A stretch of 64,000 nt of DNA, taken from positions 1 through 64,000 of the forward strand of contig NZ_BAWH01000011.1 of NCBI RefSeq assembly GCF_000586435.1, in the 5' to 3' direction. Of this stretch, positions 4,005-64,000 are shown piece after piece; the stretch's first letter is position 1; each line of letters opens with the position of its first letter. The translations under genes and the position numbers were made by a program. Origin of the DNA: Psychrobacter sp. JCM 18901 (GTDB lineage: Bacteria; Pseudomonadota; Gammaproteobacteria; Pseudomonadales; Moraxellaceae). The notes beneath the pieces were generated by a model that made no database searches, was not told where the DNA came from, and saw only the letters and a program-made list of their open reading frames with translations.

Positions 4005-5056
4005 ATGGCTGTCGATTTTAGTAATACGCTTATCGTCGCAATTTCTGCGACGGCACTTTTTGATTTGACTGAATCGGAAAACTATTTGCTAGAGCTGCTA
4101 GAGCAACGACCTATAAGTGCTATAAAAGAGTTTAGGGAGTACATGACCGAGCGTGAAAATAACCCCTTGAATATTGGTGCAGGTTATCCGCTAATTAAAG
4201 CGTTACTAAACCTAAATAAGTATTCTGATAATAGCGATGAACAAGATTCAGACATTGAAACACCATTGGTCGAAGTCGTTATCGTCTCAAAAAGTAGTCC
4301 AGACACTGGTATTCAGGTACTTAATGCAATTTTAGAACATGGTATTAATATCTCCCGTTCTGCTTTTGTTTCAGGTAGCCCTGTTGCGCCTTATATCAAA
4401 GACTTCAACGTTGATCTGTTCTTGACCACCAATCGCGAGGATGCCCAGCAAGTTGCGGATGCCAATATCTGCGCCTGTGCCATACTAGACGCTACGCCTG
4501 TGAATACTTATGAGTTAGATACTGAGCAGCTGCGTATTGCCTTTGATGGGGATGCGGTGCTTTTTGATGATTCCGGTGAACTGCTATACAAACAAAAAGG
4601 GCTACGAGCCTTTCATGATCGTGAAGTACAAATGCGTGATTTGCCGATTGAAAAAGGCCCTTATGCTGAATTGTTGATTAAATTATCAAATCTGCAGGAG
4701 CGCCTACCTGCTGGTCTAAAATACTCACCAATAAAAATTGCGCTGGTGACCGCGCGCAATGCACCAGCTGACTTGCGTGCTATTAAGACACTACGAGAGT
4801 GGGGCGTTAATGTTGATATGGCGTTTTTTTGGGAGGACTAGAGAAAACAGCGGTACTCAGAACATTTGCGCCGCATATCTTCTTTGATGATTCAATCAAG
4901 CATATCGATGCGGCACGTCGCTTTATTCCTACGGCCTTGGTTCCGTATCATTCGACGTCATTATTGCATGGTGACAACTATCTCACTGCTGATGAGGATG
5001 CATCATTGTTATCATTCAAACCTGCTGTGCACCCACTATTTGCTGTAAACCATTAA
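4005..5056 (+). CDS. 5'-nucleotidase, frame-broken
   Basis: Resembles the cytosolic 5'-nucleotidase family (Pfam 5-nucleotidase), which dephosphorylates nucleoside monophosphates. Supporting segments are the N-terminal LIVAISATALFDL, the central VALFDD-like block (AVLFDDSGE) and the C-terminal HIFFDDS. The reading frame breaks in a T run at 4824-4830: seven T are present, whereas eight (or five) restore AFFLGGLEK and join the two parts into about 350 residues. I read this as a sequence error. The ATG at 4005 is preceded by a weak AGAGA ribosome binding site. Confidence 0.82.
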
Positions 5057-5097
5057 GTAGGTATAAAAAAATCTAGGCAATAATAATAGGATGGTAT

Positions 5098-5703
5098 ATG
5101 AATTGGCAGCAGTTGCTTAACTTGATTTTCGTACGGATAAAGCAGGTCATTGGACTGTATGCTTTTGTGCTTATACCGATGTGGGGCATGTTTTTTCTAA
5201 ATGAAGTGGCCTTATTTGGTATGTGGAATATCTTTGGTATCGTGCCGCGTGCTTTAGATGTGGGTAGTATGATAGGGGTATTTGCTTCGTGGACCATGCA
5301 TGGCAATTTGTCGCATTTGACTGGCAATACAGTGACGCTATTACAGATTTTGTTTTTGTTTGGACTGTTTGAGAAGAATGCTTATCGCACGGTAATTAAA
5401 CTGGTGGTCGCCTCAGGACTGGTTACTTGGGTTATCGGGTCGCCATCTTCCATCCATATCGGCGCATCAGGGCTTTGTTTTGCAATGTTAGGTTATATGA
5501 TAGGCGGGGCTATATTTGCGCGGCGTTGGGGTTATCTGCTTGCTTGTATTGTTATGGGAACTGGCTATTGGCTGACCATTAAGCAAGGATTGATGCCGCA
5601 ACAAGGTATCTCATTTGCGGCACATTTTGGTGGCTTGTGCGCTGGGCTACTCCTAGGAGCTAATTCAAAGCATACTTATTCAGCCGCTTCTCAACGCTAT
5701 TAA
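5098..5703 (+). CDS. Rhomboid family intramembrane serine protease
   Basis: Integral membrane protein of 201 residues with six hydrophobic segments. It carries the rhomboid hallmarks: GNLSHLTGN near residues 69-77, catalytic Ser about 124 in IGASG, and catalytic His about 176 in FAAHFGG, forming the Ser/His dyad that cleaves substrates within the membrane. It follows the 5'-nucleotidase by about 40 bases and may share its transcript. The substrate is unknown. Confidence 0.9.
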   Translation: MNWQQLLNLIFVRIKQVIGLYAFVLIPMWGMFFLNEVALFGMWNIFGIVPRALDVGSMIGVFASWTMHGNLSHLTGNTVTLLQILFLFGLFEKNAYRTVIKLVVASGLVTWVIGSPSSIHIGASGLCFAMLGYMIGGAIFARRWGYLLACIVMGTGYWLTIKQGLMPQQGISFAAHFGGLCAGLLLGANSKHTYSAASQRY

Positions 5704-5766
5704 AAGCAACTGGATGTCAGTATTTAATGAACCAGCATAATCATAACCGTACTAAGCGTTATTGGA

Positions 5767-6315
5767 TCAGACGCTTGCATCAGTACAGATTTTGATAAAT
5801 AAAGGGTCATCTGTAGTTAGCTCTCGCCATGCAGTGGTCTGTTTAACATGTTCATCCACCGTCAGCGTGCTACCTTTTTCTGGTATCACGTAGTCTGCTC
5901 GGGCAGGTGTAGTGCAATCTATTACCTGTAAAATCTTCTGCACGCTTCTGCGTCTTTCAAACAAATACAAATTAACTAAATGCATATCTGGATTGTCAGC
6001 ATGCATGCTAGCATTGCCCGTATCTGCCGCAATAAAGCGCAAGACTTGTGGTTTAACATAAGACCATGGGCGAAACCATTCCGTGCTTTCTGCTGTTTTG
6101 ACAACTTCTACGCCTTCTGGCAGATCTCGCACTTGTTGACCATACCAGCTGTATTCCTGGTTTATCTGAAATGCAAACATCCCAATAGCAGCAAATAAGG
6201 GAATCAGCCATTTAGGTGCACGTTTGCCTGCCAGTTTGCTGAGGTGAGTTATGATAAGTGCTAGTCCAGCCATACCAAATGCGGCAGCGATGGTAGCGAT
6301 AAACTCAAAAAGCAT
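5767..6315 (-). CDS. Membrane-anchored protein of unknown function
   Basis: Encodes 182 residues. Two hydrophobic segments at about residues 4-26 and 38-52 are followed by a soluble domain of about 130 residues containing paired Trp residues (STEWFRPWSY) and two Cys residues, one in DCTTPA. I do not recognise the family. It is convergent with the rhomboid gene and is probably a single-gene transcript. Confidence 0.65.
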   Translation of the reverse strand: MLFEFIATIAAAFGMAGLALIITHLSKLAGKRAPKWLIPLFAAIGMFAFQINQEYSWYGQQVRDLPEGVEVVKTAESTEWFRPWSYVKPQVLRFIAADTGNASMHADNPDMHLVNLYLFERRRSVQKILQVIDCTTPARADYVIPEKGSTLTVDEHVKQTTAWRELTTDDPLFIKICTDASV

Positions 6316-6441: not shown

Positions 6442-6476
6442 ATATAGTAACAGAAGATATATCCTCAGTTGTGAGC

Positions 6477-9360: not shown

Positions 9361-10854
9361 ATGAACGAAGATAGTAGGTTGGTTTAATAACATCGTAAAT
9401 TATGGTGTCGGTATTATCTGGGGTAACAACGATTGGCTGATTGCTAGTAACCCTTGGTATGGATTACTGATGTTCTTACTAATTGGTGCGGGTCTTTACT
9501 TCACCGTCGTGACACGTTTTATTCAGTTTCGTCATTTTGGTCATATGTGGAAGTTGCTACGCGTGTCCAACCAAGGACGCAAAGATGGTGGTATTAGCTC
9601 ATTTGAAGCATTGATGACGTCGCTGGCCGCGCGTGTTGGTACTGGTAACTTGGCAGGTGTGGCAATTGCCATCTATTTGGGTGGACCAGGTGCTGTATTC
9701 TGGATGTGGATGACGGCACTGGTCGGTATGTCGACCAGCTTTATCGAGTCAACCTTAGCACAGGCATATAAAGTACCGCACAACGATAATGTGTACCGCG
9801 GTGGCCCTGCTTATTACATCGAAAAAGGTCTAGGCAAGCGCTGGCTTGCCGTGTTTTTCTCATTATGTTTGTTAGTGGCCTTTGGTTTGGCATTTAATGG
9901 CGTACAATCAATACCATCGCTCAAGCGACCAACGAAGCCTTTGGTGTGCCAACGTGGATGACAGGTTTGGTATTGGTAGTACTGGTAGCGCCAGTGGTAT
10001 TCGGTGGTTTACGCTCAGTAGCTCGTATCGCGGGTAAAATCGTACCAGTGATGGCTATCTTGTACATCTTGCTAGCGCTATTCATTATCGTGACTAACTT
10101 CAGTCAATTCCCAGCAGCGATCGCGTTGATTGTAAAATCAGCATTTGGCTTTGAGCAGGCAGCAGGCGGTGTCATCGGTTATGGTATTGCACAGGCGATG
10201 ATTAATGGTATCAAACGCGGCTTGTTCTCTAACGAAGCAGGTATGGGTTCAGCACCGAATGCTGCAGCAACGGCAAAGAGTCATCCTGATCACCCAGCAG
10301 TACAAGGTTTTATGCAGATGCTAGGTGTATTCATGGATACTCTTATCATTTGTACCGCGACGGCATCGATTATTATCTTGTCTGGCGTGGTTGATCCTAA
10401 TGTCGAGCAAGAAGGTATTCAGTTAACTCAGCTAGCCTTATCACAGTATGTTGGTGACCTAGGTGTTGTGTTTGTGGCGATTGCGATTTTCTTCTTCTCA
10501 TTTACGTCTATCATCGCCAACTACAGCTACGGTGAGTCAAATCTTGAATTTATCTCTGGTGCCAAAAATGCCAAAGTAATGATTATGGTTTTCCGCTTCC
10601 TAGTGTTAGGTATGGTATTTATCGGCTCTGTTGCTAGTTTACCTGCTATATGGAACTTCGCTGACTTGTCTATGGGTCTGATGGCCTTAGTCAACTTAGT
10701 GGCTATCTTGCTGTTGTCTCCTGTAGCGCTAAGAATACTACGTGACTATGAGCGTCAGGTAAAAGAGGGTAAAACAGGCGATCAGATAAAGTTTGATCCT
10801 GATAACTTTGTAAAACTCAGAGATGAAGCCAACCGTGATGCTTGGACAGACTAA
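9361..10854 (+). CDS. Na+/alanine (AGCS family) symporter, frame-broken
   Basis: Alanine or glycine:cation symporter family, about 497 residues with ten or more hydrophobic segments. Family motifs include FEALMTSLAARVGTGN, GGPGAVFWMWM, YRGGPAYYIEKG and NEAGMGSAPNAAA. The ATG at 9361 follows AAGGAG but leads to an early stop; a break near 9370 is needed to enter the VGWFNN frame. A second break near 9912 (AA where AAA is expected) restores GVQSNTIAQATNEAFG. The protein imports small neutral amino acids with Na+. A terminator follows. Confidence 0.88.
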
Positions 10855-14190: not shown

Positions 14191-15182
14191 ATGGATATCA
14201 AAAACCAGACAGTCGGAAAGCTCAGACCGTGTGTCGATATATCTGTTGACCAAAGTCCCAAAGCTATTGATCTAGTAGATGTCAATAAACATGCTAGTAA
14301 CACAGTTGTAAGCGATAAAAAAAACGTAGCGCGCCCATTGGCGTGTTTGACTCTGGTGTTGGCGGTTTGTCTGTTTATTTGCATTTAGCACAGCAGCTGC
14401 CTACTGAGCGTTATGTATATTACGCCGATACGCTAAATGTACCTTATGGCAATCGTGATAGCGGAGATATTGAAACGCTAACGCTAAAGGCGGTAGAGTG
14501 GTTACATAAGCAAGGCTGTAAGCTAATAGTTATTGCTTGTAACAGCGCCTCAGCATATGCGCTAGATACTGCCCGACGCTGCTATCCACATATACCTATT
14601 GTGGGTCTTGTTCCTGCATTGAAGCCTGCGGTATTGGCGAGTAAAAGTGGTCATGTAGCGGTGCTAGCAACCAAAGCGACTTTGAATGGCACCTTATTAA
14701 ATGATGTTATTGTCAATTTTGCTAAACCTAATAATACAGTAGTCACTAAGTATTTTGATCGCAACTGGTACCTTGGGTAGAAGCAGGTATGTCAGAACAA
14801 GACGAGACAGCCGAAAGATTACGTCAACAGGTACGAATATTTGCTAATGAAGGTGTCGATCAGTTAGTGCTGGGGTGTACGCATTATCCATTTTTTTAAG
14901 ACATTCTTGTTAGATGAGATTACACAGCAGCAGTTATCAATACAAGTCATTGATTCTGGTCAAGCGATTGCTGAACGGGTTAAACAGCTATTGATTGCAA
15001 ACAACTTGTCTGCATCATTGATGAGTGAAAAACGAGAAAATCTGTCACAAAAAACCAGTAATAAAAATACCATTACTAGGCCGCCATTAACTTTTCACGC
15101 CACTAAATATAGTGATAGACTATGCGCTTTAGTTGAGCGCTTACTCGGTACAGAAATGGCATTGCAATACTACTCTTACTAG
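14191..15182 (+). CDS. murI: Glutamate racemase, frame-broken three times
   Basis: Interconverts L- and D-glutamate for peptidoglycan synthesis. Recognisable blocks are IGVFDSGVGGLSV, YYADTLNVPYGNR, the catalytic-Cys segment IACNSASA and the second-Cys segment LGCTHYPFF. The frame breaks in an A8 run at 14317-14324 (six or nine expected), near 14760 where a C is missing before GCAACTGG (restoring YFDPQLVPWVEAG), and in a T7 run at 14891-14897 (six expected). Repair gives about 330 residues, with an unusual N-terminal extension of about 45 residues if 14191 is the start. MurI is essential in most bacteria, so genuine inactivation is unlikely. Confidence 0.9.
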
Positions 15183-21033: not shown

Positions 21034-21307
21034 AATTTTTTTTCCTATTATTATAAATATGGGTCAAGCGCTATATTTGGTAGTGATGCTCTCGTTTTTC
21101 AATGCTTCTTTCAAACGTCTCATTACCCTTGGCACTATTTATTCAGCTTAGCAGGCAAGCCAAAGGCGATAAGTAACAAACAGTAATGTTATAATGGGCT
21201 TTTGCTATCTTACTTCTTTATCAACTGATAATGACAAGCAAAAACTACCAAGCAAAATTCACCAAGTAATTCTTAATTTCAGTTCTATTCTAAAAACGAG
21301 TCGTCCC

Positions 21308-22094
21308 ATGAGCCAATCCCAGCCTGCTATCAAACATGACACCTTATTTGATAAACCGTTTACCACGCCACTGGATAAGGCCGCACGCTTTTCATTTGAT
21401 GAGCAAGTGGTGGCTTGTTTTCCTGACATGATTCGCCGCAGTGTACCCGGTTATGGACAGGTACTAGCGATGCTACCCATATTTGCCCGTCGTCATTGTA
21501 AGTATCGCCAGCAGAGCGATAGTGGTCAACGCGTTAGTCGTGTTTATGACTTGGGCTGTTCATTGGGTGCCGCCAGTATGACGCTAGCGGGTGAGTTCGA
21601 CCCACAAGACTTACAGATTAAAGCAATTGATATTTCGCCCGCGATGACGACCGAGGCGACCACGCTACTGAGTGAGAATTATCCTAAGCATGACATCGAA
21701 GTGATCACAGCAGATATCCGCGATATTGAGCTTGAGCCGTGCGATATGGTGATTTTGAACTTGACGTTACAATTTTTGCCAGCTGCTGATAGAGTCGCGG
21801 TATTAGAGAAGATTTATGCGGCATTAAGTGAAGGCGGCATATTGGTACTGACTGAAAAAAACCCATGCGTTTGATGAGCAATATGATGCGTGGTTGGTGG
21901 AGCGTTATTACGACTTCAAACGTGCCAATGGTTATACCGAGATGGAAATCAGTGGCAAGCGTAATGCGTTAGAAAATGTCCTCATTACTGACACGTTAGA
22001 TGAGCATCATGCACGATTAGATCAGGTTGGTTTTGCGCGTCATCTGACGTGGTTTCAGTTTTTGAATTTTGTCTCTATTGTGGCGTTTAAATAG
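21308..22094 (+). CDS. cmoA: Carboxy-S-adenosyl-L-methionine synthase, frame-broken
   Basis: Makes carboxy-SAM from SAM and prephenate for cmo5U34 formation in tRNA. The ATG at 21308 ([17 protein letters not shown]) fits the family length; a longer upstream start is unlikely. Key blocks are [33 protein letters not shown] and LNLTLQFLP. An A7 run at 21855-21861 should be six, joining [17 protein letters not shown] to the C-terminal part. Repaired length is about 262 residues. It works with CmoB at 22792-23850. Confidence 0.93.
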
Positions 22095-28554: not shown

Positions 28555-28621
28555 ATCTCTTTATTTTATCAAAAGCTTTCTAGCTGTTTTATCCTATTAA
28601 ACGTCCATTAAGAGTATGGTT

Positions 28622-29716
28622 ATGACCGTATCTAACTCAGTAATACCGCAAGCAGGCGTCATCAAAGCGTTCTTTCAAAAATACTTTATCGATGCTTTTA
28701 CTGGTATGGCTTTAGGGCTATTTGTCACGTTGATCGCAGGTCTGATTATCTCGCAAATCGGTGTTTGGTTAGATTTGCCAGCATTGGTCGCGGTCGGAAA
28801 GCTTGCCTCGATATTAATGGGTGCTGGCATCGGTGTAGGTATCGCTTACTATCTCAAAGCGCCAACGCTAGTGATGCTCAGCTGCCTTGTGGCAGGTATG
28901 CTTGGTGCCCATTCCGAAGCACTAATGGCAGGCACGCTCTTTACGCCGCAAGTGGGTGGGCCTGCAACTTTTGTAGCGCTACCGGGCAATCCAATCGGTG
29001 CTTATCTGACTTCTGTATTTGCTTATCGTGCTGGTACTTGGGTCGCTGGTAAGACGAAGCTTGATATTTTATTGGTGCCCTTAGTAGTGTGCGGCGTCGC
29101 ACTATTAGTCTGCGCACTGCTCAATCCGCCTATCGTAGCAGGGGTCGCAGCTATCGGTCAGGGTATTCATGCCGCTACTGAATTACAGCCTCTTCTAATG
29201 GGTATCGTCATCGCCGTAGTGGTTGGTATTTTATTGACCCTACCAACGTCGAGTGCAGCCATTTGTATTGCTATTGGGCTTGGTGGCTTGGCGGGCGGGG
29301 CAGCAGTGGTGGGTTGTGCAGCGCATATGATTGGTTTTGCTGTTGCAAGTTTTAAAGACAATGGCGTTAGTGGCGTTATCTCTCAAGGCTTGGGTACCAG
29401 TATGCTGCAAATCCCTAATGTGCTCAAAAAGCCTATCGTTCTGCTACCTGCTGTCATTCCTAGCGCTATCGTTGGGCCTATCGCGACCGTTGGTTTTGGA
29501 TTAGCTTGTACCGCGACAGGGGCGGGTATGGGTACTGCTGGTTTGGTCGGTGTGTTTGGGGTTATTGAGGCATCACAAGAAATCATGAGCACCGGTCAAC
29601 TATGGACAGCGATTATTCTATTGATGTTTATATTACCTGCGGTGATTGCAGGGTTAGTGGCTTACATCATGCGCCGTATGGGCTGGTTGGTCGCTGGTGA
29701 TATGAAGCTGCCTTAA
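28622..29716 (+). CDS. Orphan PTS IIC-type membrane transporter (PTS_EIIC_2)
   Basis: About 364 residues, nearly all hydrophobic, with some nine or ten membrane segments and Gly/Ala-rich repeats such as GGPATFVALPGNPIGAYL and GLGGLAGGAAVVGCAAH. It matches the PTS_EIIC_2 type. No IIA, IIB, HPr or EI gene is near. Of two ATGs, 28622 is better placed after AAGAG than 28616. Bracketed by terminators, it is a single-gene unit. The substrate and energy source are unknown; phosphotransfer-independent transport is possible. Confidence 0.8.
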   Translation: MTVSNSVIPQAGVIKAFFQKYFIDAFTGMALGLFVTLIAGLIISQIGVWLDLPALVAVGKLASILMGAGIGVGIAYYLKAPTLVMLSCLVAGMLGAHSEALMAGTLFTPQVGGPATFVALPGNPIGAYLTSVFAYRAGTWVAGKTKLDILLVPLVVCGVALLVCALLNPPIVAGVAAIGQGIHAATELQPLLMGIVIAVVVGILLTLPTSSAAICIAIGLGGLAGGAAVVGCAAHMIGFAVASFKDNGVSGVISQGLGTSMLQIPNVLKKPIVLLPAVIPSAIVGPIATVGFGLACTATGAGMGTAGLVGVFGVIEASQEIMSTGQLWTAIILLMFILPAVIAGLVAYIMRRMGWLVAGDMKLP

Positions 29717-31187: not shown

Positions 31188-32466
31188 TTAAGCAATTTTA
31201 GGTACTTTACCTTTATTGATAACGTCCGCATCAACCATTACAGTTTTAGCGTTTTCCATAGAAGGTAGCTCATACATAGTCTCAAGCAGCGCATTTTCTA
31301 CAATAGAACGTAGACCACGTGCACCAGTTTTACGCTCCATTGCTTTTTTTGGCGATGGCATCTAGGGCTTCTTGGGTAAAGCTAATCTCAGCACCTTCCA
31401 TATCGAACAAGTACTTGTACTGTTTTACCAGTGCGTTCTTAGGTTCCGTCAAGATTTGTACCAGTGCTTCTTCATCAAGCTCTTTTAGCGCTGCAAGTAC
31501 AGGTAGACGACCGATCAGCTCAGGAATCAGACCAAACTTGATCAAATCTTCTGGCTCGACTTCTTGTAGCAAGTCTGAGCTACGACGGCTGTCGTCTTTT
31601 GAGCTGACATCAGCGTTAAAGCCGATACCGCCTTTTTCGGTACGCTGCTGAATGACTTTATCAAGTCCAGCAAATGCACCACCAACGATGATTAGGATGT
31701 TGCTAGTGTCAACTTGGATCAACTCTTGCTGTGGATGCTTACGACCACCGTGCGGCGGGATAGCAGCCACCGTACCTTCGATTAGCTTTAGCAACGCTTG
31801 CTGTACGCCTTCACCTGACACATCACGCGTGATAGATGGGTTGTCACCTTTCTTACTGATTTTGTCGATTTCATCAATATAAATGATACCTTGCTCAGCT
31901 TTAGCTACATCATAATCAGAAGCTTGGAGGAGCTTTTGTACGATGTTTTCAACGTCTTCACCAACATAACCAGCTTCGGTCAATGTCGTGGCATCAGCCA
32001 TCGCAAAAGGTACATCTAACAGACGAGCCAAGGTTTGCGCAAGTAGCGTCTTACCAGAACCAGTCGGACCGATCAGCAAGATATTACTCTTAGCCAATTC
32101 TACCATTGCATCGTCAGCGCCGATCTTGGCTTTTTTTGCTGTCGTTGGCTAGCGTCTGGCTAACTTTTAGACGTTTGTAATGGTTATAGACGGCAACAGC
32201 CAATGCTTTTTTTGGCAGCGTCCTGACCGATGACATATTCATCAAGCTTGGCACGCAGCTCTTTTGGCGTTGGTAGTTTTTTTATTGACCCAAGAAGTAT
32301 CTACTTCGCTATCGTCATCACCGTGCTCTGCGCTGTCTGCGATTAAGTCAGTACATAGCTCGATACATTCATTGCAGATATTGGCATCGTCAGCAGCAAT
32401 CAGTTGCTGTACATCGCTTTTGGCTTTACCGCAAAACGAACACTGCGGGGTATTATCTTCTGCCAT
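31188..32466 (-). CDS. clpX: ClpX ATPase, specificity subunit of ClpXP, frame-broken four times
   Basis: AAA+ unfoldase that feeds substrates to ClpP. The N-terminal zinc-binding domain has [11 protein letters not shown] and CNECIELC; the Walker A is [12 protein letters not shown], Walker [10 protein letters not shown], and pore and sensor regions include AGYVGEDVE and ELIGRLP. Four separate runs of seven (T at 31344-31350, 32131-32137, 32207-32213 and 32277-32283) should each be six, restoring [33 protein letters not shown] and [13 protein letters not shown]. Repaired length is about 425 residues, ending KGKVPKIA. Four identical error types in one conserved gene point to sequence error. Confidence 0.95.
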
Positions 32467-32652: not shown

Positions 32653-33326
32653 TTACAAAGATTCAGGCGACGCTCTAATACTTCGTCAACCAAACCATAC
32701 TCTTTGGCTTCTTGTGCATCTAACCAATAATCACGCTCAACGTCTTTTTCAATTTTCTCTACTGGCTGACCAGTACGCTCAGCTAAGATACTGTTTAGAC
32801 GTGCACGAGTTTTAAGGATTTCACGAGCATTAATTTCGATATCTGTTGCTTGACCCTGCGCGCCGCCTGAAGGCTGGTGAATCATCACGCGAGCATTGGC
32901 CAGCGAATAACGTTTGCCTTTTTGCCCTGCAGCCAATAGGAATGAACCCATACTATAAGCACCGCCCATACAGATAGTCGATACTTCAGGCTTGATAAAG
33001 TTCATGGTATCAAAAATAGCCAAGCCCGCGCTTACTGAACCACCTGGCGAGTTGATATATAAATGAATGTCTTTGTCAGGGTTTTCAGCTTCTAAGAATA
33101 GTAACTGGGCAACGATAAGGTTAGCCATGTTGTCTTCGACCTGACCGGTCAAAAAGATAACGCGCTCACGTAATAGGCGTGAAAAAATATCAAACGAGCG
33201 TTCACCGCGTGAGGACTGTTCAACCACCATAGGTACTAATGCCGCTTGTGTGGTCTGTACTTCTTTGTGCGCACTCATCAGCATATCAAAATGCGGGTTG
33301 GCAGTGATGCGATCATAATCTGTCAT
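32653..33326 (-). CDS. clpP: ClpP protease subunit, frame-broken at the C-terminus
   Basis: Serine peptidase forming the barrel of ClpXP/ClpAP. The protein has [18 protein letters not shown], catalytic Ser in [14 protein letters not shown], and catalytic His in MIHQPSGG, and the late [25 protein letters not shown]. As written the frame runs on to 32622 with a non-family tail. Adding one C near 32667 gives the usual RRPESL ending and a stop at 32653. About 224 residues. It lies upstream of clpX on the same strand. Confidence 0.95.
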
Positions 33327-34202: not shown

Positions 34203-35230
34203 ATGAGTTGGGCCTCTTCTTTAGCATTAAGCTTTGACACTGTTAGCAGGACAAGTACGGCCAAAGAAGGTACGGCTGATAACTCAAAAACGCGGCTTTA
34301 TCATCGTAAGCACACGGGTGCCTTGATGGTACAGCGTGCTCTGTATCCTGAGCCAAGCGTACAGCAGGGTATTTGTCACATACTGATGTTGTACCCGCCA
34401 GCCGGTATCGCAGGCGGTGATACGCTGACCATAGACCTAAACTTAGATAGTGGCAGCCACGCTGTTATCACCACACCAGGGCAGGTAAGTGGTACGGTAA
34501 GGACAGTGTTAGTCAAAAACATAAAGCTCCGTTGAGCGACAACGACACTCACCAAAGTATGGGTCAAAATGAAATAGCTGCCTATGCGAGCCAACACGTA
34601 CAAGCCAAACTCGCAGCACATACCCGATTAGAATGGCTGCCGCAAGAGAGTATCATTTATAACGAAGCCAATATGCATGCAGTGAGCCGTTTCGATTTGA
34701 CGGATTCATCTAGTCTACTGACATGGGAGATTAGCGTATTTGGGCGGCAAGCTTACGACGAGCAGTTTTTGCAAGGGTATTATCATACTGGATTGAACAT
34801 CTACCGAGATGGCAAGGTTATCGTTGCTGAGCGAGTAGCGCAGGCAGCACAAAATCGCTGGTTTACCTCAAATTTGGGATTAGCGAACCAGCATATTTAT
34901 GGATCGTTTTGGGCAGTTCCAAGCTTAAGTGACGTCCATGACAATCTTGCACTCTCTGCATCACAGACTACGCAATCGACCGAAACAGCCCAAGCAACTA
35001 TCAAGCAATCATTAACCCGCTATCTAGATAACTCCGTAGCAGCATTGCGCCAAGTCATTGCTCAAGCACAACTGCCTGTCTACTGCACGCATAATTGCCA
35101 AGCGATCAATATCCGCTACATCGGCTCAGATGTACGTAGTTGTTTTGAAGCGTTTTATCAGCTGAGAGAAGTCTTGCGAGATCATTGGTGGCAACTTGAG
35201 CCTTGTCGTCCACGTATTTGGGACACCTAA
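34203..35230 (+). CDS. ureD: Urease accessory protein UreD, frame-broken
   Basis: Chaperone that binds apo-urease with UreF and UreG during nickel insertion. Family segments are ALMVQRALYPEP, CHILMLYPPAGIAGGD and SRFDLTDSSSLLTWEI. GGG at 34479-34481 should be GGGG, restoring HAVITTPGAGKWYGKDSVSQ and one protein of about 342 residues. First gene of the cluster, which then runs ureA, ureBC, ureE, ureF, ureG, ureJ in one direction. The ATG at 34203 has only a weak ribosome binding site. Confidence 0.92.
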
Positions 35231-35707: not shown

Positions 35708-37894
35708 ATGCAAGCAGGCGAATACCATATCCAAGATGGCGATATTATCTTAAACCAAGGGCGACAGGTACAGACCATCAGTGTGAGTAATACTGGTGAT
35801 AGACCTATCCAAATCGGCTCGCATTATCACTTTTATGAAGTCAATGATGCCTTGAGTTTTGACAGAGAGCAAACTCGGGGGTTTCGCCTAAATATTATCT
35901 CTGGCACCGCCGTACGTTTTGAGCCTGGCCAATCACGGGAAGTCGAATTGGTAGCATACGCTGGCAAGCAAGACGTCTATGGTTTTGCTGGGCGCGTCAT
36001 GGGCGCAGCTCATCCAGACAAAGCATCAGAGAGCACTACTGATAAGAAGGCAATCGCTACTTCGAAGAAGCGAGTCAGTCGTCGTATTTATGCTGAGCAT
36101 TTTGGTCCTACCACAGGCGATAAAGTCCGTCTTGCCGATACTGAGCTTTGGCTACAGGTTGAGGCGGATTTAACCAGTCATAAAGATACAGCTGTTGATC
36201 AAGCAGATACGTCGCAAAGTGGTGAGAGTAGTAAGCCTATTGAAATCAAAGGTGAAGAAGTCAAATTTGGTGGTGGTAAAGTCATCCGTGATGGCATGGG
36301 ACAAGGACAGTTACTAGGCGCGGAAGTTGCCGATACGGTTATTACCAATGCATTGGTCGTTGACTATACAGGCATCTATAAAGCGGATATTGGTATCAAA
36401 GATGGTCGTATCAGTGCCATTGGCAAAGCGGGCAATCCTGATATCCAGCCCGCTATTGATATTCCTATTGGCGGAGCTACCGAAATCATCTCTGGCGAAG
36501 GCAAAATCCTCACAGCAGGTGGCGTCGATAGTCATATTCATTTTATCGCGCCCCAGCAGTGTGAGACGGCGCTTATGTCAGGGGTAACTACGATGCTGGG
36601 CGGCGGCACAGGACCAGCTCAAGGTACGCTCGCTACTACTTGTACACCAGGGGCGTATCATATTGCCTCAATGCTAAAGTCTACTGATAGTATCCCTATG
36701 AATATTGGACTACTGGGTAAAGGCAATGTGAGTGTACCAGAACCCATTGCTGAACAAATCGAAGCAGGTGCCGTGGGGCTGAAGCTACATGAAGATTGGG
36801 GTACAACACCGCAAGCTATTGATAACTGCTTGAGTGTCGCTGACGACTATGATGTGCAGGTGGCCATTCATACCGATACTTTAAATGAAAGTGGCTATCT
36901 AGAGAGTACACTTGCTGCTTTTAAAAACCGCTGTATCCATACTTTTCATACTGAAGGGGCAGGTGGTGGCCATGCGCCCGATATTCTAAAGGCTATTGGC
37001 GAGTCGCATGTTTTGCCATCATCTACCAATCCCACTCGACCATATACCGTCAATACCATTGATGAGCATCTCGATATGCTGATGGTTTGTCATCACCTAA
37101 GTCCTGCTATTGCTGAAGATGTGGCCTTTGCTGAGAGCCGTATTCGTCAAGAAACCATCGCCGCAGAAGATATCTTGCATGATTTGGGTGCTATCTCGAT
37201 GATGAGTAGTGATTCACAAGCGATGGGGCGGGTGGGTGAAGTGGTCATCCGTACATGGCAAACCGCGCACAAAATGAAAGTTCAACGTGGCCATCTAGCA
37301 CCAGATACAACAGCGACCATTGAGGATGAGCAAGAGTACATCAATTTGACAGATTATGACCAAAGCGCGGATAACGACAACTTCCGTATCAAACGCTATA
37401 TCGCAAAATATACAATAAACCCTGCGATTACTCACGGTATTAGCGATATGGTCGGCTCAATCGAAGTGGGAAAATGGGCAGATATGGTGCTATGGTCGCC
37501 CAAGTTTTTTGGGGTAAAGCCTGAATGCATTATAAAAGGCGGGCTCATTGCTGCAGTACCGATGGGTGATATCAATGCCTCTATTCCCACACCCCAGCCT
37601 GTACATTATCGTCCTATGTTTGCGACATATCCAAAATCGGTTGCCCAAACCAGCATTACTTTTATGTCGCAAGCGGCGATCGACAAACAAGTGGATAAGC
37701 AGCTTGGATTGACCAAAGTCATTCAGCCAGTACACGGCATCCGTAAAATTCGTAAAGGCGATATGCGCTTTAACAGCTACTGCCCAGATATGGACATCAA
37801 TCCTGAGACCTATGAAGTACGCGCTGATGGTAAGACACTCACCTGTGAGCCAGCTGATGTACTACCCATGGCACAGCGTTACTTTTTATTTTAG
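35708..37894 (+). CDS. ureC: Urease beta-alpha subunit fusion (UreB-UreC)
   Basis: A single 728-residue frame joins a full beta subunit (residues 1-about 100, [13 protein letters not shown] to GFAGRVMG) to a full alpha subunit (from about residue 130, [21 protein letters not shown]). The linker is about 30 polar residues with no start codon usable for UreC other than the in-frame ATG at 35999. Nickel ligands and active-site residues are present: HIHF (His about 276 and 278), the carbamylated Lys about 359 in [28 protein letters not shown] and the flap CHHLSP. A second oddity is an extra loop of about 24 polar residues before GEEVKFGGG. Confidence 0.95.
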
Positions 37895-39538: not shown

Positions 39539-40226
39539 ATGTCTCTAACTCCGCTCAAATTAAAAAATTCTCACACTGCATCAGACGTACAGACTGATAG
39601 CGACAGCCAGAAACCATCTTCTGCCTTATCGTGCTTACGCCTTGGTATTGGTGGGCCAGTTGGTAGTGGTAAAACTGCTTTGACTTTAAGCTATGCCAAA
39701 ACCTACGCGATACGGTCAATATGGCAGTGGTGACCAATGACATCTATACCAAAGAAGATTCAGAGTTTTTAACTCGCAATGATGCCATGCCTGCTGAGCG
39801 TATCCGCGGTGTAGAGACGGGCGGCTGTCCGCATACGGCTATCCGCGAAGATGCTTCTATTAATCTGACTGCGATCGCTGAGCTACAAGCGACTTTTGAA
39901 GGTTTGGAGTTGATTATCATTGAGTCAGGTGGCGACAATTTAGCCGCGACGTTTAGTCCAGAGCTGTCTGACTTGACCTTGTATGTCATTGATGTCTCTG
40001 CAGGCGATAAGATACCTCGTAAAGGTGGCCCCGGCATTACCAAGTCTGATTTGTTGATTATTAATAAGACTGACCTTGCACCAATGGTTGGTGCTTCGCT
40101 TGAAGTGATGGAACGCGATGCCAAAAAAATGCGTGGCGACAAACCTTTTGTCTTTAGCAATATGAAAACAGGCGATGGCTAAATGAGATTATCGCCTTTA
40201 TTAAAGAACATGGCATGCTTGCCTAA
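39539..40226 (+). CDS. ureG: Urease accessory GTPase UreG, frame-broken twice
   Basis: SIMIBI-class GTPase that powers nickel insertion. Walker A is [14 protein letters not shown]; other blocks are [51 protein letters not shown] and the guanine-specificity [10 protein letters not shown] missing near 39691 restores [22 protein letters not shown] missing near 40180 restores [18 protein letters not shown] with the stop at 40224-40226. About 229 residues, including a longer than usual Ser/Asp-rich N-terminus of some 25 residues. Confidence 0.94.
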
Positions 40227-40276: not shown

Positions 40277-41027
40277 ATGACACAGTGTACAAAAGGTCTT
40301 CATATCGAAAGCTCTCGCTTTTCACAAGTGCTCTCAGCTCCTCATATCGTATCTGGTTCGGCTGTGATGACGTCACTAATGCTACCGTCATTGGCGCAGG
40401 CGCATTCAGGTCATATTCACTCGACTACCGCGCAAGCGCCGTCATTTTTGGGTACGTTGCAAGCAGGACTGATGCATCCAGTCACTGGCCTTGATCATCT
40501 GTTTTTGGCAGTAGGCATGGGCATGTTGTTTTATGGGCTACAAAAGCAGCGCTTAGGCATGATGTCATTGACGGCAGGGTTATCATTAGGCGCGATATTG
40601 GGCACGGCTGGCGTGCTGATTGGCGGTATTGCATTTGTTGCATCATCTGGGCTAATTGAAGTGGCGATATCACTGTCGGTGGTCGTATTAGCTATAGTCT
40701 TGATGAGCCAAAAAAAGCAGACAAGAAGCATTCTCTGCTCAGACCCATACAGCACGCACGCCAAGTATTCAGCAGCTATCATTGTTTGGTTTTGGTGGTT
40801 TGGCCGTCTTTCATGGGTTGGCACATGCGCTGGAAGTACCAGCAAATGCTGGCGTGAGTGGTCAGCTAGGATTTTATGCAGGGATGCTAGTGACGATGCT
40901 GGCGCTATATGCCATTGGTACGTTGGTCAGTCAACAGCTACAGCAACGCCTAGGTGATAACTTATGGTTACAACGCGGGCTCGTCGTGCTCGGACTGGGT
41001 GCAGTGTTTGTTCCTGCTTTTGTTTAA
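40277..41027 (+). CDS. ureJ: HupE/UreJ family nickel transporter, frame-broken
   Basis: Membrane protein of about 249 residues with six or so hydrophobic segments. The His-rich start of the mature region (HSGHIHS) and GLMHPVTGLDHLF and FHGLAHALE are HupE/UreJ signatures; these proteins import nickel. It has an N-terminal signal-like segment ending SLAQA. An A7 run at 40710-40716 should be six, joining LMSQKSRQEAFS to the second half. Last gene of the urease cluster, followed by a terminator shared with tig. Confidence 0.9.
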
Positions 41028-41183: not shown

Positions 41184-42528
41184 TTACATTGCTTGCTGCT
41201 GTTGTTGCTGAGCAGCTAGCAAGTCTTGGTAGCTAACTTCTTTGTCAGTTACTTTACCTTGTGCGATCAAGTAATCTACTACTTGGTCTTCTAGTACAAC
41301 AGACTCAATGTTAGCGCGCTGCTGCTTGTCATTGGTGTAGTACTCGATAACTTCTGCTGGATCTTCGTAGTTTTCAGCGGCTTCTTTGATGAAGGTTTCT
41401 ACACGCTCTTGATCTACTTCTAAGCCTTTGGTATCGATAACACGGGCAACGATGATGCCAAGACGGGCAGCACGTAGCGCTTGCTCTTCAAATAGCTCAT
41501 TTGGCAGCATGTCTTTATCGAAGCTATCAGCATTCGCACCGAACTGCTGAGAAAAACGTTGCATCATCATGTTGCGTTGACGCTCGATTTCTTGCTCTAG
41601 CATCGCGTTTGGTACATCAAACTCGTTCTTTTCTAGCAATGCGTCAAAAGTCGCTTGCTTAACTTGGCTACGCGCAGCGTTTTTGATTTCGCGTTCCATG
41701 TTTTTGCGTACGTCTTCTTTCAACTTCTCAACGCCGCCTTCTTTTACGCCGAATAGCTCAAGGAACTCTTCGTTAATTTCAGGTAGCTTAGATTTTTCAA
41801 CCAATTTTACGTTGATTTTGAACTGAGCTTCTTTACCAGCTAGGTTCTCAGCTTGATAATCTTCTGGGAAAGTGACGTCGATAGTTTTTTTCTTCGCCAG
41901 CTTTCATGCCTTTGATACCAGCTTCAAAACCTGGAATCATTTGGTTGCTACCGATAACTAGTTTAAAGTCTTCAGCAGAGCCGCCTTCGAATTTTTCGCC
42001 GTCGATAGAGCCTTCAAAGTCAAAAGTCACTTGGTTGTCTTTTGCAGCCATGCCCTTTTTCTCAACGAATTCTTCACGTTGCTTTTGTAGGTTTTCAATC
42101 ATAGTGTCAACGTCTTCTTCACTAACTTGTGCAGTGTGACGCTCAACTTCGATCTCATCGATACCTTGTACATCTACTTCTGGGAAGATTTCAACAGTGG
42201 CTTGATATACCAAGAAATCGTCTTCAAGTTTTACGTCGTCGATGTTAGGCATGCCAACAGCACGGATGTCTTCAGATTTGATCGCTTCAAACACAGTATC
42301 ACGGATCACATCGTTGATAACTTCTTGTTGAATGCCAGCACCGTACTGAGAGCGGATGTGTGACATAGGGACGTTACCTTTACGGAAACCGTCAATCTTG
42401 CAGTTTTCGCAACTTGGCGAATACGGCCTTCAACTTTGTTTTGAATTTTTTTCAACGGGTACTTTAACCGTTAGCTGGGTTTCTTTATTAGATAGCTTGT
42501 TGGTTGTGACTTGTAAATCTGTAGCCAT
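41184..42528 (-). CDS. tig: Trigger factor, frame-broken three times
   Basis: Ribosome-bound chaperone and peptidyl-prolyl isomerase. From the ATG at 42528 ([24 protein letters not shown] begins the ribosome-binding domain) breaks lie at the T7 run 42446-42452 (six expected, restoring [11 protein letters not shown]), near 42395 (one base missing, restoring [13 protein letters not shown], which holds the ribosome-binding signature) and at the T7 run 41885-41891 (six expected, restoring [15 protein letters not shown] in the FKBP-type domain). About 447 residues. Normally next to clpP-clpX, here separated from clpP by the urease cluster. Confidence 0.94.
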
Positions 42529-43062: not shown

Positions 43063-43715
43063 TTATAAAGGCAGCTGCGCCAATAGCTGCTGGATTGCCT
43101 GACCACGATGCTGATGCTGTTTTTATCAGCAGCGCTTAGACTCGCCGCACTGGCTTGCAAATCAGGTAACCAAAATAATGGATCATAGCCAAAACCGCCG
43201 TCACCATGTAGCGTATCCAAGATTTCGCCATGCCATAATCCTTGGGCGACAATCGGTAGCGGATCATCAGCATGACGCACCATTGCCAGTACGCAAACGA
43301 ACATACCTTTGATCGGAGTATCTGGCTTCACTGCGCGGATAGGCTGCAAGTCAGCGATGAGCTTGACATTGTTTTTACTATCGTTGCCATGCTCACCAGC
43401 GTAGCGAGCAGAGTAGATGCCTGGCGCATTACCTAGTGCAGGCACGCACAGTCCTGAATCATCAGCAATCGCAGGCAGTCCACTGATACGGCTCGCATGA
43501 CGGGCTTTGATAATGGCGTTTTCTACAAAGCTTAGACCATCCTCGATGGCGTCTTCAATATCGAGCTGACATTGCGGGACAATCGTCACGTCCAAGTTCG
43601 CTTCGGCAAATAGCCGTTTAAATTCAGCCAATTTGCCTTTATTGTTACTGGCCAGTACCCATTGGTTGCCAGATGTCGGATGGGTAGCAGTTAACGAGGT
43701 ATCAGTAGTGCTCAT
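43063..43715 (-). CDS. rdgB: dITP/XTP pyrophosphatase (RdgB), frame-broken near the end
   Basis: Removes non-canonical purine nucleoside triphosphates such as dITP and XTP. The protein has the N-terminal WVLASNNKGKLAEF, the metal-binding IADDSGLCVPAL, SARYAGEHGND and GDGGFGYDPLFW motifs. A missing C near 43110 shifts the written frame to a non-family tail; repair gives SISHRGQAIQQLLAQLPL and a stop at 43063-43065, about 218 residues. Confidence 0.93.
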
Positions 43716-49737: not shown

Positions 49738-51894
49738 ATGGTATACCAAGGAAATCGCATCACGGTGACAATGCTAGAGGATGGCATCGCAACATGCAGT
49801 ACAACGCCGAAAATGAGAGCGTGAACAAATTTGATGCCGAAACCAACAAGCAGTTTGGTGAAGCAGTTAGTGCGTTAGAAAAAGCCGACAACGTAAAAGG
49901 TCTTATTGTAACCTCAGCCAAAGGCGTGTTTATCGCTGGTGCTGATATCACAGAATTCGTCGGTTCTTTCAAAAAAATCAGAAAGCGAGATCAAAGATTG
50001 GGTCGTTCATGTTAATGACGCTTTCAATCGTTTTGAAGACCTGCCATTCCCTAAAGTTGCGGCTATCAATGGCGCGGCAATGGGCGGCGGTTGTGAAATG
50101 ACTTTGGTTTGTGAATACCGTGTCATGAGTGACAAAGCCATCATCGGTTTGCCAGAAACTCAGCTAGGTATCTTCCCAGGTTTCGGCGGTACAGTTCGTA
50201 GTACGCGTATCATCGGTATCGATAACGCACTTGAGCTGATCGCCACTGGTAGCCCAAAGAAAGCACTAGCAGCATTGAAGCTAGGCTTGGTTGATGCGAC
50301 TGTACCTGCTGATGACTTGCAAGATGCAGCAATTGACCTAGTTAAAAAAATGTATCTCAGGTGAGCTTGATTGGAAAGCAAAACGTGAAGAGAAATTGGC
50401 TCCAGTTAAGCTAAACCAACTTGAGCAAGCAATGGCGTTCAACAGTGCCAAAGGTGCTATTTTTGCTAAAGCCAATCCTAAGCAATACCCAGCACCAGCG
50501 CTAGCAATCGAAGCTATTGAAAAACACGTTAACCTACCACGTGACAAAGCAATCGAAGTAGAAGCGGCTGGTTTTGCTAAAGCGGCTAAAACCCCACAAG
50601 CAGAAAGCTTAGTTGGTTTGTTCTTAAACGATCAATTAGTTAAAAAGTTAGCAAAACAGCATAGCAAACAAGCACACGACATCAACGAAGCCGCTGTACT
50701 AGGCGCTGGTATCATGGGTGGCGGTATTGCTTATCAAGCAGCCAGCAAAGGCTTGCCAATCATCATGAAAGATATCAAGTCTGAGCAATTAGACCTTGGT
50801 ATGGGCGAAGCGAGCAAACTGCTTGGCAAAATGGTAGAACGCGGCAAGATGACCCCAGCAAAAATGGGTGAAACGTTAAGCCGTATCCGTCCTACTTTGA
50901 ACTACGGCGACTTTGCTGAGACTGATATCGTAATCGAAGCGGTCGTAGAAAATCCAAACGTGAAGCGTGCGGTACTTAAAGAAGTAGAAGGTCTAGTAAA
51001 AGACGACTGTATCCTAGCGTCAAACACCTCGACTATCTCTATTACGTTCCTAGCAGAAGCGCTTGAGCGTCCAGAAACTTCGTTGGTATGCATTTCTTCA
51101 ACCCAGTACACCGTATGCCATTGGTAGAAGTTATCCGCGGTGAGAAATCATCTGAAGAAGCTATCGCGACTACCGTTGCACTCGCTTCTAAAATGGGTAA
51201 AGTGCCAGTAGTTGTGAATGACTGCCCAGGTTTCTTGGTAAACCGTGTATTGTTCCCATATTTTGGCGCGTTTGACTTGCTACTGAAGCAAGGTGCTGAT
51301 TTTGCTCATGTCGATAAAGTTATGGAAAAATTCGGCTGGCCAATGGTCCTGCTTATCTAATTGACGTGGTTGGTCTAGATACTGGTGTACATGGCGCAGC
51401 AGTGATGCTGATGGTTTCCCTGATCGCATGAAGCCTGATTATAAAGGTGCTATCCAGCATCTATATGACAATGAGCGTCTGGGTCAGAAAAACGGCATCG
51501 GTTTCTATAAATACGAAATGGACAAGCGCGGCAAGCCAAAGAAAGTTGCTGATGAAGCCACTTACGAATTGCTAAAAGCCACGACTGATAGCGAAAAGCA
51601 GACCTTTGACGATCAAGCAATCATTGATCGCACTATGATTGCCTTCTGCAACGAAACCGTTCGCTGCCTAGAAGACAACATCGTAAGCACACCAAGCGAG
51701 GCCGATATGGCGATGATTATGGGCGTAGGTTTCCCTCCATTCCGTGGTGGCCCATGCCGTTATGTTGACCAAATGGGTCTAGATAACTACTTGGCACTAT
51801 GTGAAAAATACGCACATCTTGCAAAGCTTATGAAGCGCCACAAAAGATTCGCGACATGGCAGCCGCAGGCGAGACTTTTTACGCAACAGCGTAA
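49738..51894 (+). CDS. fadB: Fatty acid oxidation complex alpha subunit FadB, frame-broken seven times
   Basis: Bifunctional enoyl-CoA hydratase and 3-hydroxyacyl-CoA dehydrogenase of beta-oxidation. Start ATG 49738 follows AAGGAG. Hydratase motifs are [12 protein letters not shown] and [11 protein letters not shown], with [16 protein letters not shown]; dehydrogenase motifs are [22 protein letters not shown] and [15 protein letters not shown]. Breaks lie near 49790 (AAA to AA), at A7 runs 49971-49977 and 50344-50350 (six expected), and near 51076, 51345, 51407 and 51821 (one base lost from short A or G runs). Repair gives about 718 residues ending [11 protein letters not shown]. All breaks restore family sequence exactly. 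Confidence 0.95.
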
Positions 51895-52079: not shown

Positions 52080-53297
<1,218 letters not shown>

Positions 53298-55126: not shown

Positions 55127-55964
55127 TTATTGAGCATTTGCCATTCCTAGCAATTGACCCATTTGCACGATGCTATTGGCTTGCATACTATCTAGCCAAT
55201 CAGCCTTTGCTGCTTTTGGTAATACTACGATAGCCGTTGAGCCTAAATAGAAGCGTCCAAGCTCTTCGCCTGCCGCAAACTGCATGTCATGATTAGCTTC
55301 TTGTATATCGTCAGTACGAGCAATTTTGCCAGTGGCGATAGTTTCAATACCAGCGACGATCATAGCGCCAACCATTACGACAGCTGCTTTGCCATACTTG
55401 GTATCAAACATACAGACCAGACGCTCATTACGCGCAAATAAGTCTGGCACGTTAGCCGCCGTAGTATTGTTGACCGAAAACAGGGTGCCAGGCACATAGC
55501 GAGTCTTAGTCAATGTGCCAGTAAACGGCATATGCACACGGTGATAATTACTAGGTGCTAAGTAGATAGTCGCAAAACTACCATCAGCGAAATAACTGCC
55601 ATCTTCACTATCAGCAAGCAATTGACCGACATCATAGTGACGGCCTTTGGCTTGTAGTAGTTTATGGTCTTCGATTTGTCCTAGCTGAGAAATAATACCG
55701 TCCGCAGGACTTACGATACCGTTTGCAGTGGCGTCGATAGTACGAGCATCTTCTTTTAACTCGCGGGTAAAAAAAGTCATTAAAACTTTCATAAGCGTTA
55801 AGGCTTTGGCGTTCGTACTCGTCTAAGCTGATATTATAAGCTTTGGCAAAGCTACGGATAAAGGTGCGTTTGACATAAGGGTGGCGACTGGCGGCCAAAC
55901 GTCCAGCGACTTTACTGAGCTTTTGCTGCGGCACAAGCTGTTGTAAGGTGGTAAATACATTCAT
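55127..55964 (-). CDS. psd: Phosphatidylserine decarboxylase, frame-broken
   Basis: Makes phosphatidylethanolamine at the inner membrane. The start is the ATG at 55964 (MNVFTTLQQLVPQQ). An A7 run at 55769-55775 should be six, restoring SFNDFFTRELKEDAR. Further family blocks are VSPADGIISQLG, HRVHMPFTGTL and the self-cleavage site LGST, where the pyruvoyl cofactor forms. About 279 residues. A MITE-like element ends 33 bases upstream of the start and may carry or disturb its promoter. Confidence 0.94.
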
Positions 55965-55997
55965 AATAAGGCTACCAAAATAAGGTGTAATGTAATA

Positions 55998-56157
55998 GGG
56001 GCGTGTTGGAAATTCGACCATGGCACTGACAGTGGATAAAATTGCGCCATACTACGTTGTAAATCTAGATAAGGCATGAGCATTATCGTCGTTTTACGCC
56101 TTGTCTGGAACAGTTTTAGCGATCCGCAGTACCTATTTGTGAATATCAAACACGCCC
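55998..56157. mobile_element. MITE-like element, copy 2
   Basis: A 160-base element with terminal inverted repeats: left GGGGCGTGTTGGAAATTC and, read inward from the right, GGGCGTGTTTGATATTCAC. It is flanked by TA on both sides (55996-55997, 56158-56159). The termini and an internal GATAAAATTGC block resemble copy 1 at 16943-17111. No transposase. It occupies the space between divergent psd and dtd. Confidence 0.7.
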
Positions 56158-56238: not shown

Positions 56239-56693
56239 ATGAAAGCACTCATACAACGGGTGAAGCACGCTAGTGTGGTCGTCGATCAACAGTGTATTGG
56301 TGAGATTGGGCATGGGGTATTGGCATATATTGGCTTGGGGCATGAAGACGATTTTGCCGCTGCCCAGCGTATGATTGACAAAATACTGACCTATCGCATT
56401 TTTGAAAATGACGATGATCCGGCCAAATTTGGTAAACTGGATAAAAACGTTCAGCAGGTTGCTGGTGGGCTATTATTAGTTTCACAATTTACCTTGATGG
56501 CAAAAACAGACAAAGGGCGCCGACCAGACTTTGGTGGTGCGATGGCACCTGCTGCTGCGCAAGCGTTATTTGAACAACTGGTCGACTATGCCAAAACTAA
56601 GCACCCGAACGTGGCAACTGGTCAGTTTGGTGCTGATATGCAAGTGTCGAGCGTCAATGATGGGCCGCTCAATTTTTTTTACTAGAAATCTGA
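56239..56693 (+). CDS. dtd: D-aminoacyl-tRNA deacylase, frame-broken at the end
   Basis: Hydrolyses D-aminoacyl-tRNAs mischarged by synthetases. The protein has MKALIQRVKHASV, LLVSQFTLMAKTDKGRRPDF (core SQFTL motif) and VNDGPLNF, where the Gly-Pro is the chirality filter counterpart. The T8 run at 56673-56680 should be six, giving the family-like ending NFLLEI and a stop at 56691-56693. About 150 residues. Confidence 0.94.
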
Positions 56694-61594: not shown

Positions 61595-62277
61595 ATGCAA
61601 ATGAAAATCAATGATGACACTTATGATGTAATCACGAGTAAAGACATTACAAATATTGAAAAAGCAGTCGACAAGTCTGCTCTATCAATGCCGCTCGTGG
61701 CTGTGTATTGCGGTTCACGCTTGGGCAATGGTGACGTGTATGAACAGGCGGCGCGCGAGCTCGGCAGTGCTTGGCAAATAATGGCATGGGTCTAGTATAT
61801 GGTGGCGCCAGTATCGGCCTAATGGGCGCAGTTGCGGATGAAGTAATCAATGGCGGCGCGCAAGCAGTGGGCGTGATTCCAACCTTTATGCTCAAGCACG
61901 AAATCGCTCACGAGCAGCTGACTCGCTTGCATTTGACTGACACTATGCACACGCGTAAGACCGTCATGGCAGAGTATGCCGATGCCTTTATCACGCTACC
62001 AGGCGGGCTAGGAACGTTAGAAGAGATTATGGAAATCGCTACGTGGCGTCAATTGTACCAGCACGAAAAACCAATGATCATTTTGAACATCAATGGTTTT
62101 TATGACCGTATGATTGAGCATTTGAAATATACCACTGAGCAAGGCTTTATGAAGCAGGAAGATTTAGACCGTCTAGTGGTGTGCAATACCATCAGCGAAG
62201 CGATCGATATGCTACAGACAGTAGTGACCATAGATGATGCTGTGGATACGGAGAAAATGGCTGGTAGTAATAGTTAA
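61595..62277 (+). CDS. LOG family protein (lysine-decarboxylase-fold), frame-broken
   Basis: Rossmann-like protein of about 227 residues in the LOG family, whose members release cytokinin-type or purine bases from nucleotide 5'-monophosphates. Family motifs are AVYCGSRLGNGDVYEQ, GLVYGGASIGLMGAVAD, HTRKTVMAEYADAFITLPGGLGTLEE and ATWRQLYQHEKP. A T missing near 61771 breaks the frame; repair gives ELGSALANNGMGLVYGG. The first 30 residues are an unusual acidic lead before the domain. Confidence 0.9.
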
Positions 62278-62330
62278 GCCGTATAGCTATTTATACATAG
62301 CAAATGCTTAAATATTAAAAGCTATGACGA

Positions 62331-62371
62331 AAAAAGGAGCAGATAACCAAATCTCGGTTATCTGCTCCTTT
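62331..62371. terminator. Bidirectional terminator
   Basis: Perfect 16-base arms AAAGGAGCAGATAACC and GGTTATCTGCTCCTTT around AAATCTC, between convergent genes. Confidence 0.9.
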
Positions 62372-62409
62372 GTTATATGTATTAACAACCTATCAGCGAA
62401 TCATGTCTA

Positions 62410-64000
62410 TTAGGCATTAGCAGGCGTGAGATCGTCCAATGCTACTTCACGAATACTATGATTAACATGAGCCATAGCGATTGGAAATCCACGCTGCTCA
62501 GCGAGCTCACGTGCAACCTCATCGACAGCGAGGCTATCGTTATGGACAAGGTACGACCACTCGTGAGCATAGCGACTACGATTCATAGGCGTATCGTTCT
62601 CTATCAAACCTAGATCTGTCAGCTCATTAACTATTTGATCAGCGGCAATCAAGGTCGAAGATGCTTTGACGTTTTCTGCACGGGCATAGCGTATATTAGA
62701 GTACAAGCTCACGTCAGCGACTCGCAGCGTATCATCTTGTCCAGGAATCTGCTGTCCACCGTATAGCGCGTTACCAACAGTACGTGCGCTGTTAAATGTT
62801 GGTACAAACTTCGCCACATACTCAATCGCTTGCTGACTACGTGCCTGTAAGGGTACTTTATCCCAACCATCTTCAATATAATGCACGTATTGCTGTGGCA
62901 GTTTGGGCTGCGCACTGTCTTCACTTGATGCGACAAGACCATCATCAAACAAGGTAATGGCTTTACTCATACCGTGAATCTGAAAATATCCGCCAGGGTA
63001 GGGAGTAAGCTGCGCCATGCCTTCTGGTGTACCTCGTTGACCGTAGACGATAATCTCTGGTATCTGTCCACCAGCATCGCCCCAATGGGTCACATAAGAC
63101 GATTTGAACTCGACCATACGTGTGACTTCGACACCAACCATATCGTCGATGACACCCGTACGAAACCCACAAGCATTGACTAGATAATCAACTTCGATAG
63201 ACTCAGGCTGAGAGGCGTGTTCTTGACTATCGATTTGTTGATAGTCGATACGCCATTTGGTGACATGATGGTCAGCGTTGGTACAGTTCTCACAATCTAC
63301 TGGTACGACTTTTTGCACAGCAGTTTCGGTAAATACGTGCGCATTGTCGTACTCTTCAAGTGCAAGCTTGGCAGAAGCGGCTAGACGAAAAATGTTCCAA
63401 CCATATTCTTGGACAACAATTAACGGAAATTTAACTTTGTTCAAATCCAAGTATCTAGCGACTGGAATCATCCACTCATCGACCGTACTTGGTATAGCGA
63501 CTTGCTCACGTTCAGACAGCTCAATCAATTGCTCATGACTATAGAGCTGATAGTAATCTTCAGGCTCGCCCAATACCTTATTATTAGCATCTTGCTCAAT
63601 CAGTTCTTGATAAGCATCGGTCAAAATATCTAAACGCGGTAGTAAATCTTCAGGCAACCCTTCATCACGTGTCGGTACGGCAAACACCGTAGGACGAACG
63701 TCAATAGTGTGCGGATACAAACGCAAAATATCGATACATTGCTTGAGCAGTGCTACGCAATCCTCGTCCGGTATTTCACGATATAAATTACCACCTGCAT
63801 GCAAATGACACATAGGTGGTCCATCAATAAGTGATTTTTTTCTTCTCAAATAAGTAGGTCTCTAATCCTAATGCAGCAAGTCGAATCGCAATTGTCGATC
63901 CCGCAGTACCGCCGCCCAAAATGCCAACACGCTTTTTATGTTGAGTGTTTTTTGCCCCATAAGATAACACCTCAGAATGAGCGTCACGATTAAAGGATTG
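62410..64000 (-). CDS. FAD-dependent oxidoreductase, 5' end beyond the window, frame-broken
   Basis: At least 528 residues. A T7 run at 63835-63841 should be six; repair joins FEKKKSLIDGPPMCHLHAGG to an N-terminal part with the FAD-binding KRVGILGGGTAGSTIAIRLA motif. The open frame continues to the window edge, so the true start may lie outside. Further blocks are VDYLVNACGFRTG and NALYGGQQIPGQDDTLRVADVSLY. I cannot name the substrate. The convergent terminator at 62331-62371 ends it. Confidence 0.75.

Follow-up and report, generated by a model that had tools for sequence, protein, structure and literature searches.

The extra and missing bases in homopolymer runs of the Psychrobacter sp. JCM 18901 genome record are, judging from sequence comparison, almost certainly errors of the assembled consensus, whatever the sequencing platform, and neither real mutations nor a biological feature. 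They are an ordinary artefact without biological novelty, useful as a warning to those who work with this record. The window, meaning the whole stretch of DNA analysed, comprises bases 1–64,000 of the 94,917-base contig 48, in a genome of 3.15 Mb and 58 contigs. Its relatives place the genome in Psychrobacter: of the best 80 among 175 loci found in an argS scan, 75 came from Psychrobacter records and five from Moraxella or Acinetobacter. Genome completeness is 84.7%, compared with 99–100% in the relatives G003, G009, G010 and G024. These four relatives served as references and are collinear with the record at 93–95% identity over the blocks used. A run-length site was counted only if at least two relatives were comparable and all those compared agreed; other sites were dropped.

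At 58 of the 40,618 run-length sites in the window, the record differs from its agreeing relatives, with 30 runs longer and 28 shorter. A/T six-mers account for 27 of the 30 lengthened sites, 22 of them being written as seven and five as eight. When the window comparison was repeated with each relative in turn as the focal genome, 10, 3, 9 and 17 differences from the remaining three were obtained. Alignment-free counts for the window are A5 = 108, A6 = 17, A7 = 25, T5 = 105, T6 = 15 and T7 = 19, so that 213 fives are accompanied by fewer sixes (32) than sevens (44). Position 4005, treated as an onset in the preliminary description, is not a boundary, since the same pattern is also found upstream, at 471 and 776; 56 of the 58 differing sites lie at or beyond it.

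1–64000, no strand assigned: whole window, with 27 of 48 A/T six-mers longer and 28 runs shorter (24 with a true length of two to four), from alignment to relatives

A wider sample of eight blocks (204 kb; 132,052 sites; seven of the 58 contigs) consisted of the window and seven 20 kb blocks, six on other contigs and one from the remainder of contig 48. Across these blocks, 196 differences were found in the record, compared with 35, 14, 19 and 67 on the same blocks with the relatives as focal genomes; with relatives that are only 93–95% identical, some of the differences are real variation. Two further observations concern the sequences searched. The small contigs C1–C10 and C15 of the record's own genome (G000, L106–L116) have no readable runs and a GC content of 0, as if masked. 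The segment L121:11380–20000 is 99% identical to G003, against approximately 95% in the genome-wide sample, and its identity makes it a possible case of recent exchange or a mobile segment.

Lengthening in the 204 kb sample sets in abruptly between five and six bases. True A/T five-mers are unchanged in 486 of 487 cases, the single changed run amounting to 0.2%. Among 171 true A/T six-mers, 78 are unchanged, 74 are written as seven, 14 as eight and five as five, and 88 (51%) are thus lengthened; with the relatives as focal genomes, lengthened six-mers number 0/159, 0/161, 2/173 and 1/151. True seven-mers (n = 41) are mostly unchanged (33), with six at eight (15%) and two at six, while three of the six true eight-mers are unchanged and three are shorter. 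Six-mers are lengthened at similar rates in all eight blocks (chi-square p 0.90), and A runs do not differ from T runs (p 1.0). The gains are slightly clustered, with nine neighbouring pairs within 100 bp where 5.3 were expected (p 0.048). A weak effect of flanking bases on six-mer lengthening is possible, the largest of 16 positions giving a permutation p of 0.064.

Pattern counts over the whole genome, made on both strands for runs of up to nine, gave 1,747 sixes here, against 4,087 in G003, 3,920 in G009 and 3,895 in G010. The excess lies in the sevens (2,584 here; 1,113, 1,045, 1,022 and 1,023 in G003, G009, G010 and G024, respectively) and the eights (559 here; 202, 175, 183 and 176). Nines number only two here and 9, 10, 14 and 12 in the same relatives. 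The resulting seven-to-six ratio is 1.48, compared with 0.26–0.30 in nine other members of the genus with counts of both lengths. The length shift is therefore genome-wide, with runs above five pulled towards seven and hardly any written longer than eight. A mutator lineage deficient in mismatch repair, in which real replication slippage had lengthened A/T runs and shortened others, would also produce changes that are mostly single-base and located in homopolymers. Replication slippage, however, should become more frequent in longer runs, whereas here the five-mers are spared, half of the six-mers are lengthened and the seven-mers are affected far less often; nines are rarer than in the relatives, and runs in coding sequence are affected like those elsewhere. 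We consider such a lineage very improbable.

Conserved ORFs were defined with G009 as the reference, and had to be intact in two or more additional relatives and to align over their full length with this genome (n = 120). Within them, 34 of 70 six-mers are lengthened, and elsewhere, in sequence that may contain genes missed by the ORF filter, 54 of 101 (Fisher p 0.54). The same bias, which the preliminary description had proposed looking for in intergenic runs, is thus present on both sides of this division. Short-run losses (true length two to five) are similarly distributed, at 32 of 17,134 runs in conserved ORFs and 32 of 11,971 elsewhere (p 0.16). If the changes were real and under selection, the rates for coding and other sequence would be expected to differ. 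If programmed transcriptional or ribosomal slippage rescued the frames of runs that had really been lengthened, one would see A/T runs that had gained one base and reached seven or eight, as is the case here. Against this stand the equal frequency of gains outside conserved ORFs, the mere 0–2 lengthened six-mers in each relative, and a second class of change: 63 of the 196 differences, about a third, are bases lost from runs of two to four, which are not slippery. The chance that programmed slippage underlies the pattern appears vanishingly small.

Frame-shifts affect 71 of the 120 conserved ORFs in the eight blocks, with about 103 events over 108 kb of such sequence; left out were five conserved ORFs that were not fully covered here and one with an in-frame stop only. 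With G010 as the reference, 67 of 119 conserved ORFs are frame-shifted (104 events). The same measure in the relatives gives 2/108, 5/111, 1/107 and 15/122 (1–12%), the last value belonging to G024 (47 events). Of the 37 conserved ORFs in the window that passed this strict filter, 20 hold 37 frame-shifting events; the filter did not admit 22 G009 ORFs of 150 aa or more from this region. These numbers are compatible with the earlier estimate of more than 40 frame breaks in about 30 genes, the exact figures of which were not reproduced. That corrections always restore family residues was examined as run-length agreement with relatives, not residue by residue. The principal affected genes of the window are given below, with families assigned from matches of the relative's intact ORF (in parentheses). 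Each entry rests on its event count together with the family of the relative's ORF, and clpX also on four T runs that differ in length.

4005–5056, plus strand: 5′-nucleotidase, one loss (PF06189)
9361–10854, plus strand: sodium:alanine symporter, two losses, one of one base and one of two bases (PF01235)
14191–15182, plus strand: Asp/Glu racemase family, previously called murI, three events (PF01177)
21296–22094, plus strand: cmoA, one gain (TIGR00740)
31188–32466, minus strand: clpX, four single-base gains in T runs that differ from the relatives, recorded frame broken (TIGR00382)
32653–33326, minus strand: clpP, one single-base loss (TIGR00493)
34203–35230, plus strand: ureD, one loss (PF01774)
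39539–40226, plus strand: ureG, two losses (TIGR00101)
40277–41027, plus strand: ureJ/hupE, one gain (PF04955)
41184–42528, minus strand: tig (trigger factor), two gains and one loss (TIGR00115)
49738–51894, plus strand: fadB-like enoyl-CoA hydratase/3-hydroxyacyl-CoA dehydrogenase, five losses and two gains (Pfam)
55127–56021, minus strand: psd (phosphatidylserine decarboxylase), one gain (TIGR00163, a family whose name is given as archaetidylserine decarboxylase)
56239–56693, plus strand: D-Tyr-tRNA deacylase, one two-base gain (PF02580)

The cases of clpX, clpP, ureG, fadB, cmoA, psd and ureJ named previously are confirmed. For tig, the two insertions were recovered together with a deletion absent from the preliminary description, and for murI, the single-base deletion was confirmed in the racemase-family ORF as one of its three events. 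The fadB assignment comes from the Pfam domains ECH_1, 3HCDH_N and 3HCDH, which cover 647 of the 719 aa of the relative's ORF, and the fadB-like ORF adjoins an intact fadA (52125–53297). A run loss at 43110 coincides with the expected place of the relative's Ham1-family ORF (rdgB) and is outside the counted set. The tpm family was seen in the relative's ORF, and the counted set holds no tpm event. Elsewhere in the window, a single open frame of 728 aa at 35708–37894 matches both the urease beta and urease alpha families and is, by these matches, a fused UreB-UreC; its G009 counterpart, of 729 aa, is a single conserved ORF as well. Long open frames at 62410–63849 and 28616–29716 have no NCBIfam match at E 0.001.

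With 71 of 120 conserved ORFs frame-shifted, the record resembles that of a lineage losing genes by frameshift. The broken set, however, includes clpX, clpP, tig, ureD, ureG, ureJ, cmoA, psd, D-Tyr-tRNA deacylase and fadB, several of them housekeeping genes, and the genome size lies inside the 1.9–3.7 Mb range of the genus members searched. Selection was compared using private codon changes, i.e., codons that differ here alone from agreeing relatives, with nine bases around every gap excluded. The ratio of synonymous to non-synonymous changes is 577:123 in frame-shifted genes and 272:66 in the others, with one stop change in each set, and the frame-shifted set gives 869:157 in G010. Third positions hold 588 of 741 base changes in frame-shifted genes and 264 of 354 in the others. 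Constraint on the broken genes matches that on the rest, with undiminished purifying selection, which leaves gene decay with a very slight probability. The sharp length step, the genome-wide extent and the undiminished selection together favour consensus error over both decay and programmed slippage, as the preliminary description had proposed, and the cells would most likely carry intact genes.

The short-run losses have a context of their own. In the 204 kb sample, shortening affects 64 runs with a true length of two to five, and 46 of these are G/C runs. Folded onto one strand, a G precedes the C run in 32 of these 46, compared with 4,116 of all 10,527 G/C runs (Fisher p 5e-5). The context G[C-run]AT accounts for 13 shortened runs out of 628, against 46 of 10,526 overall (eight blocks pooled), and is a lead only, since many contexts were tried. 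The losses are also clustered: nine pairs of neighbouring losses lie within 100 bp of one another, where 3.2 were expected (p 0.002). The cause could be poor coverage or a context that disturbs the signal. It is doubtful, though conceivable, that the G[C-run]AT losses reflect a base modification specific to this Psychrobacter and interfering with the signal during sequencing, in which case the errors would map an undescribed methylation motif.

The reads behind the consensus error were probably long nanopore reads, both platform and software being inferred. Once a run longer than about five bases is in the pore, the signal would no longer show its length, and a model used for consensus or polishing and tuned to under-calling reads may over-compensate and write about seven. 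A sea-ice MinION paper (PMC8548342) names Psychrobacter once, in a list, and shows no link to this record. A rarer second error would drop a base from short runs, mostly G/C with a G before the C run, and the clustering of these losses resembles poorly covered patches. Several sequencing technologies confuse homopolymer lengths, and the data do not reveal the platform; an error of a non-nanopore platform, which would be a sub-case of consensus error and not exclusive of it, is nevertheless unlikely, given that a change between five and six matches what has been published on nanopore signals (PMC8486125). According to the signal data presented there, segmentation usually works well for runs of up to 5 bases, and neighbouring bases have far less influence on the current in longer ones, which would explain both why the step comes after five and why flanking bases have no clear effect (PMC8486125). 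Polishing is described as erring more often towards over-prediction of homopolymer length, a possible reason being that polishers lag behind basecallers, and over-compensation has been suggested (PMC7500977). Insertions dominate in a Flye draft of Pseudomonas aeruginosa, and the same paper puts forward over-fitting of basecallers to particular run lengths as a hypothesis (PMC8011154). Long runs tend to be under-called in nanopore reads (PMC8486125), and the Pseudomonas drafts described in PMC12007338 contain mostly false deletions. The lengthening seen here therefore needs an over-compensating step, and the direction of error depends on the pipeline.

The record would yield many false frame breaks, some thousands by extrapolation over 3.1 Mb, and false conclusions on lost clpX, tig, fadB or urease genes would follow from it. 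The artefact probably explains part of the low completeness. The seven-to-six ratio is a cheap screen for records with such errors.

Slippage with frame rescue has been reported for the poly(A) tracts of insect endosymbionts, in which frame breaks likewise fall in A/T runs of conserved genes. The present record differs from them in its additional short-run losses, its lack of a coding bias and its normal genome size. Closer parallels are the nanopore-only assemblies presented with Homopolish (PMC8011154) and Kastor (PMC12007338), which, in the cases described, also have homopolymer indels, broken frames and disagreement with relatives. Unlike those cases, the gains here concentrate on A/T runs of exactly six, and the Pseudomonas draft of the Kastor paper erred mostly in the opposite direction (PMC12007338). 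Drechmeria coniospora after long-read polishing likewise shows over-prediction of run length and frame breaks in conserved genes; the authors describe no clear pattern in that assembly (PMC7500977), whereas the errors in the Psychrobacter record follow a sharp length threshold.
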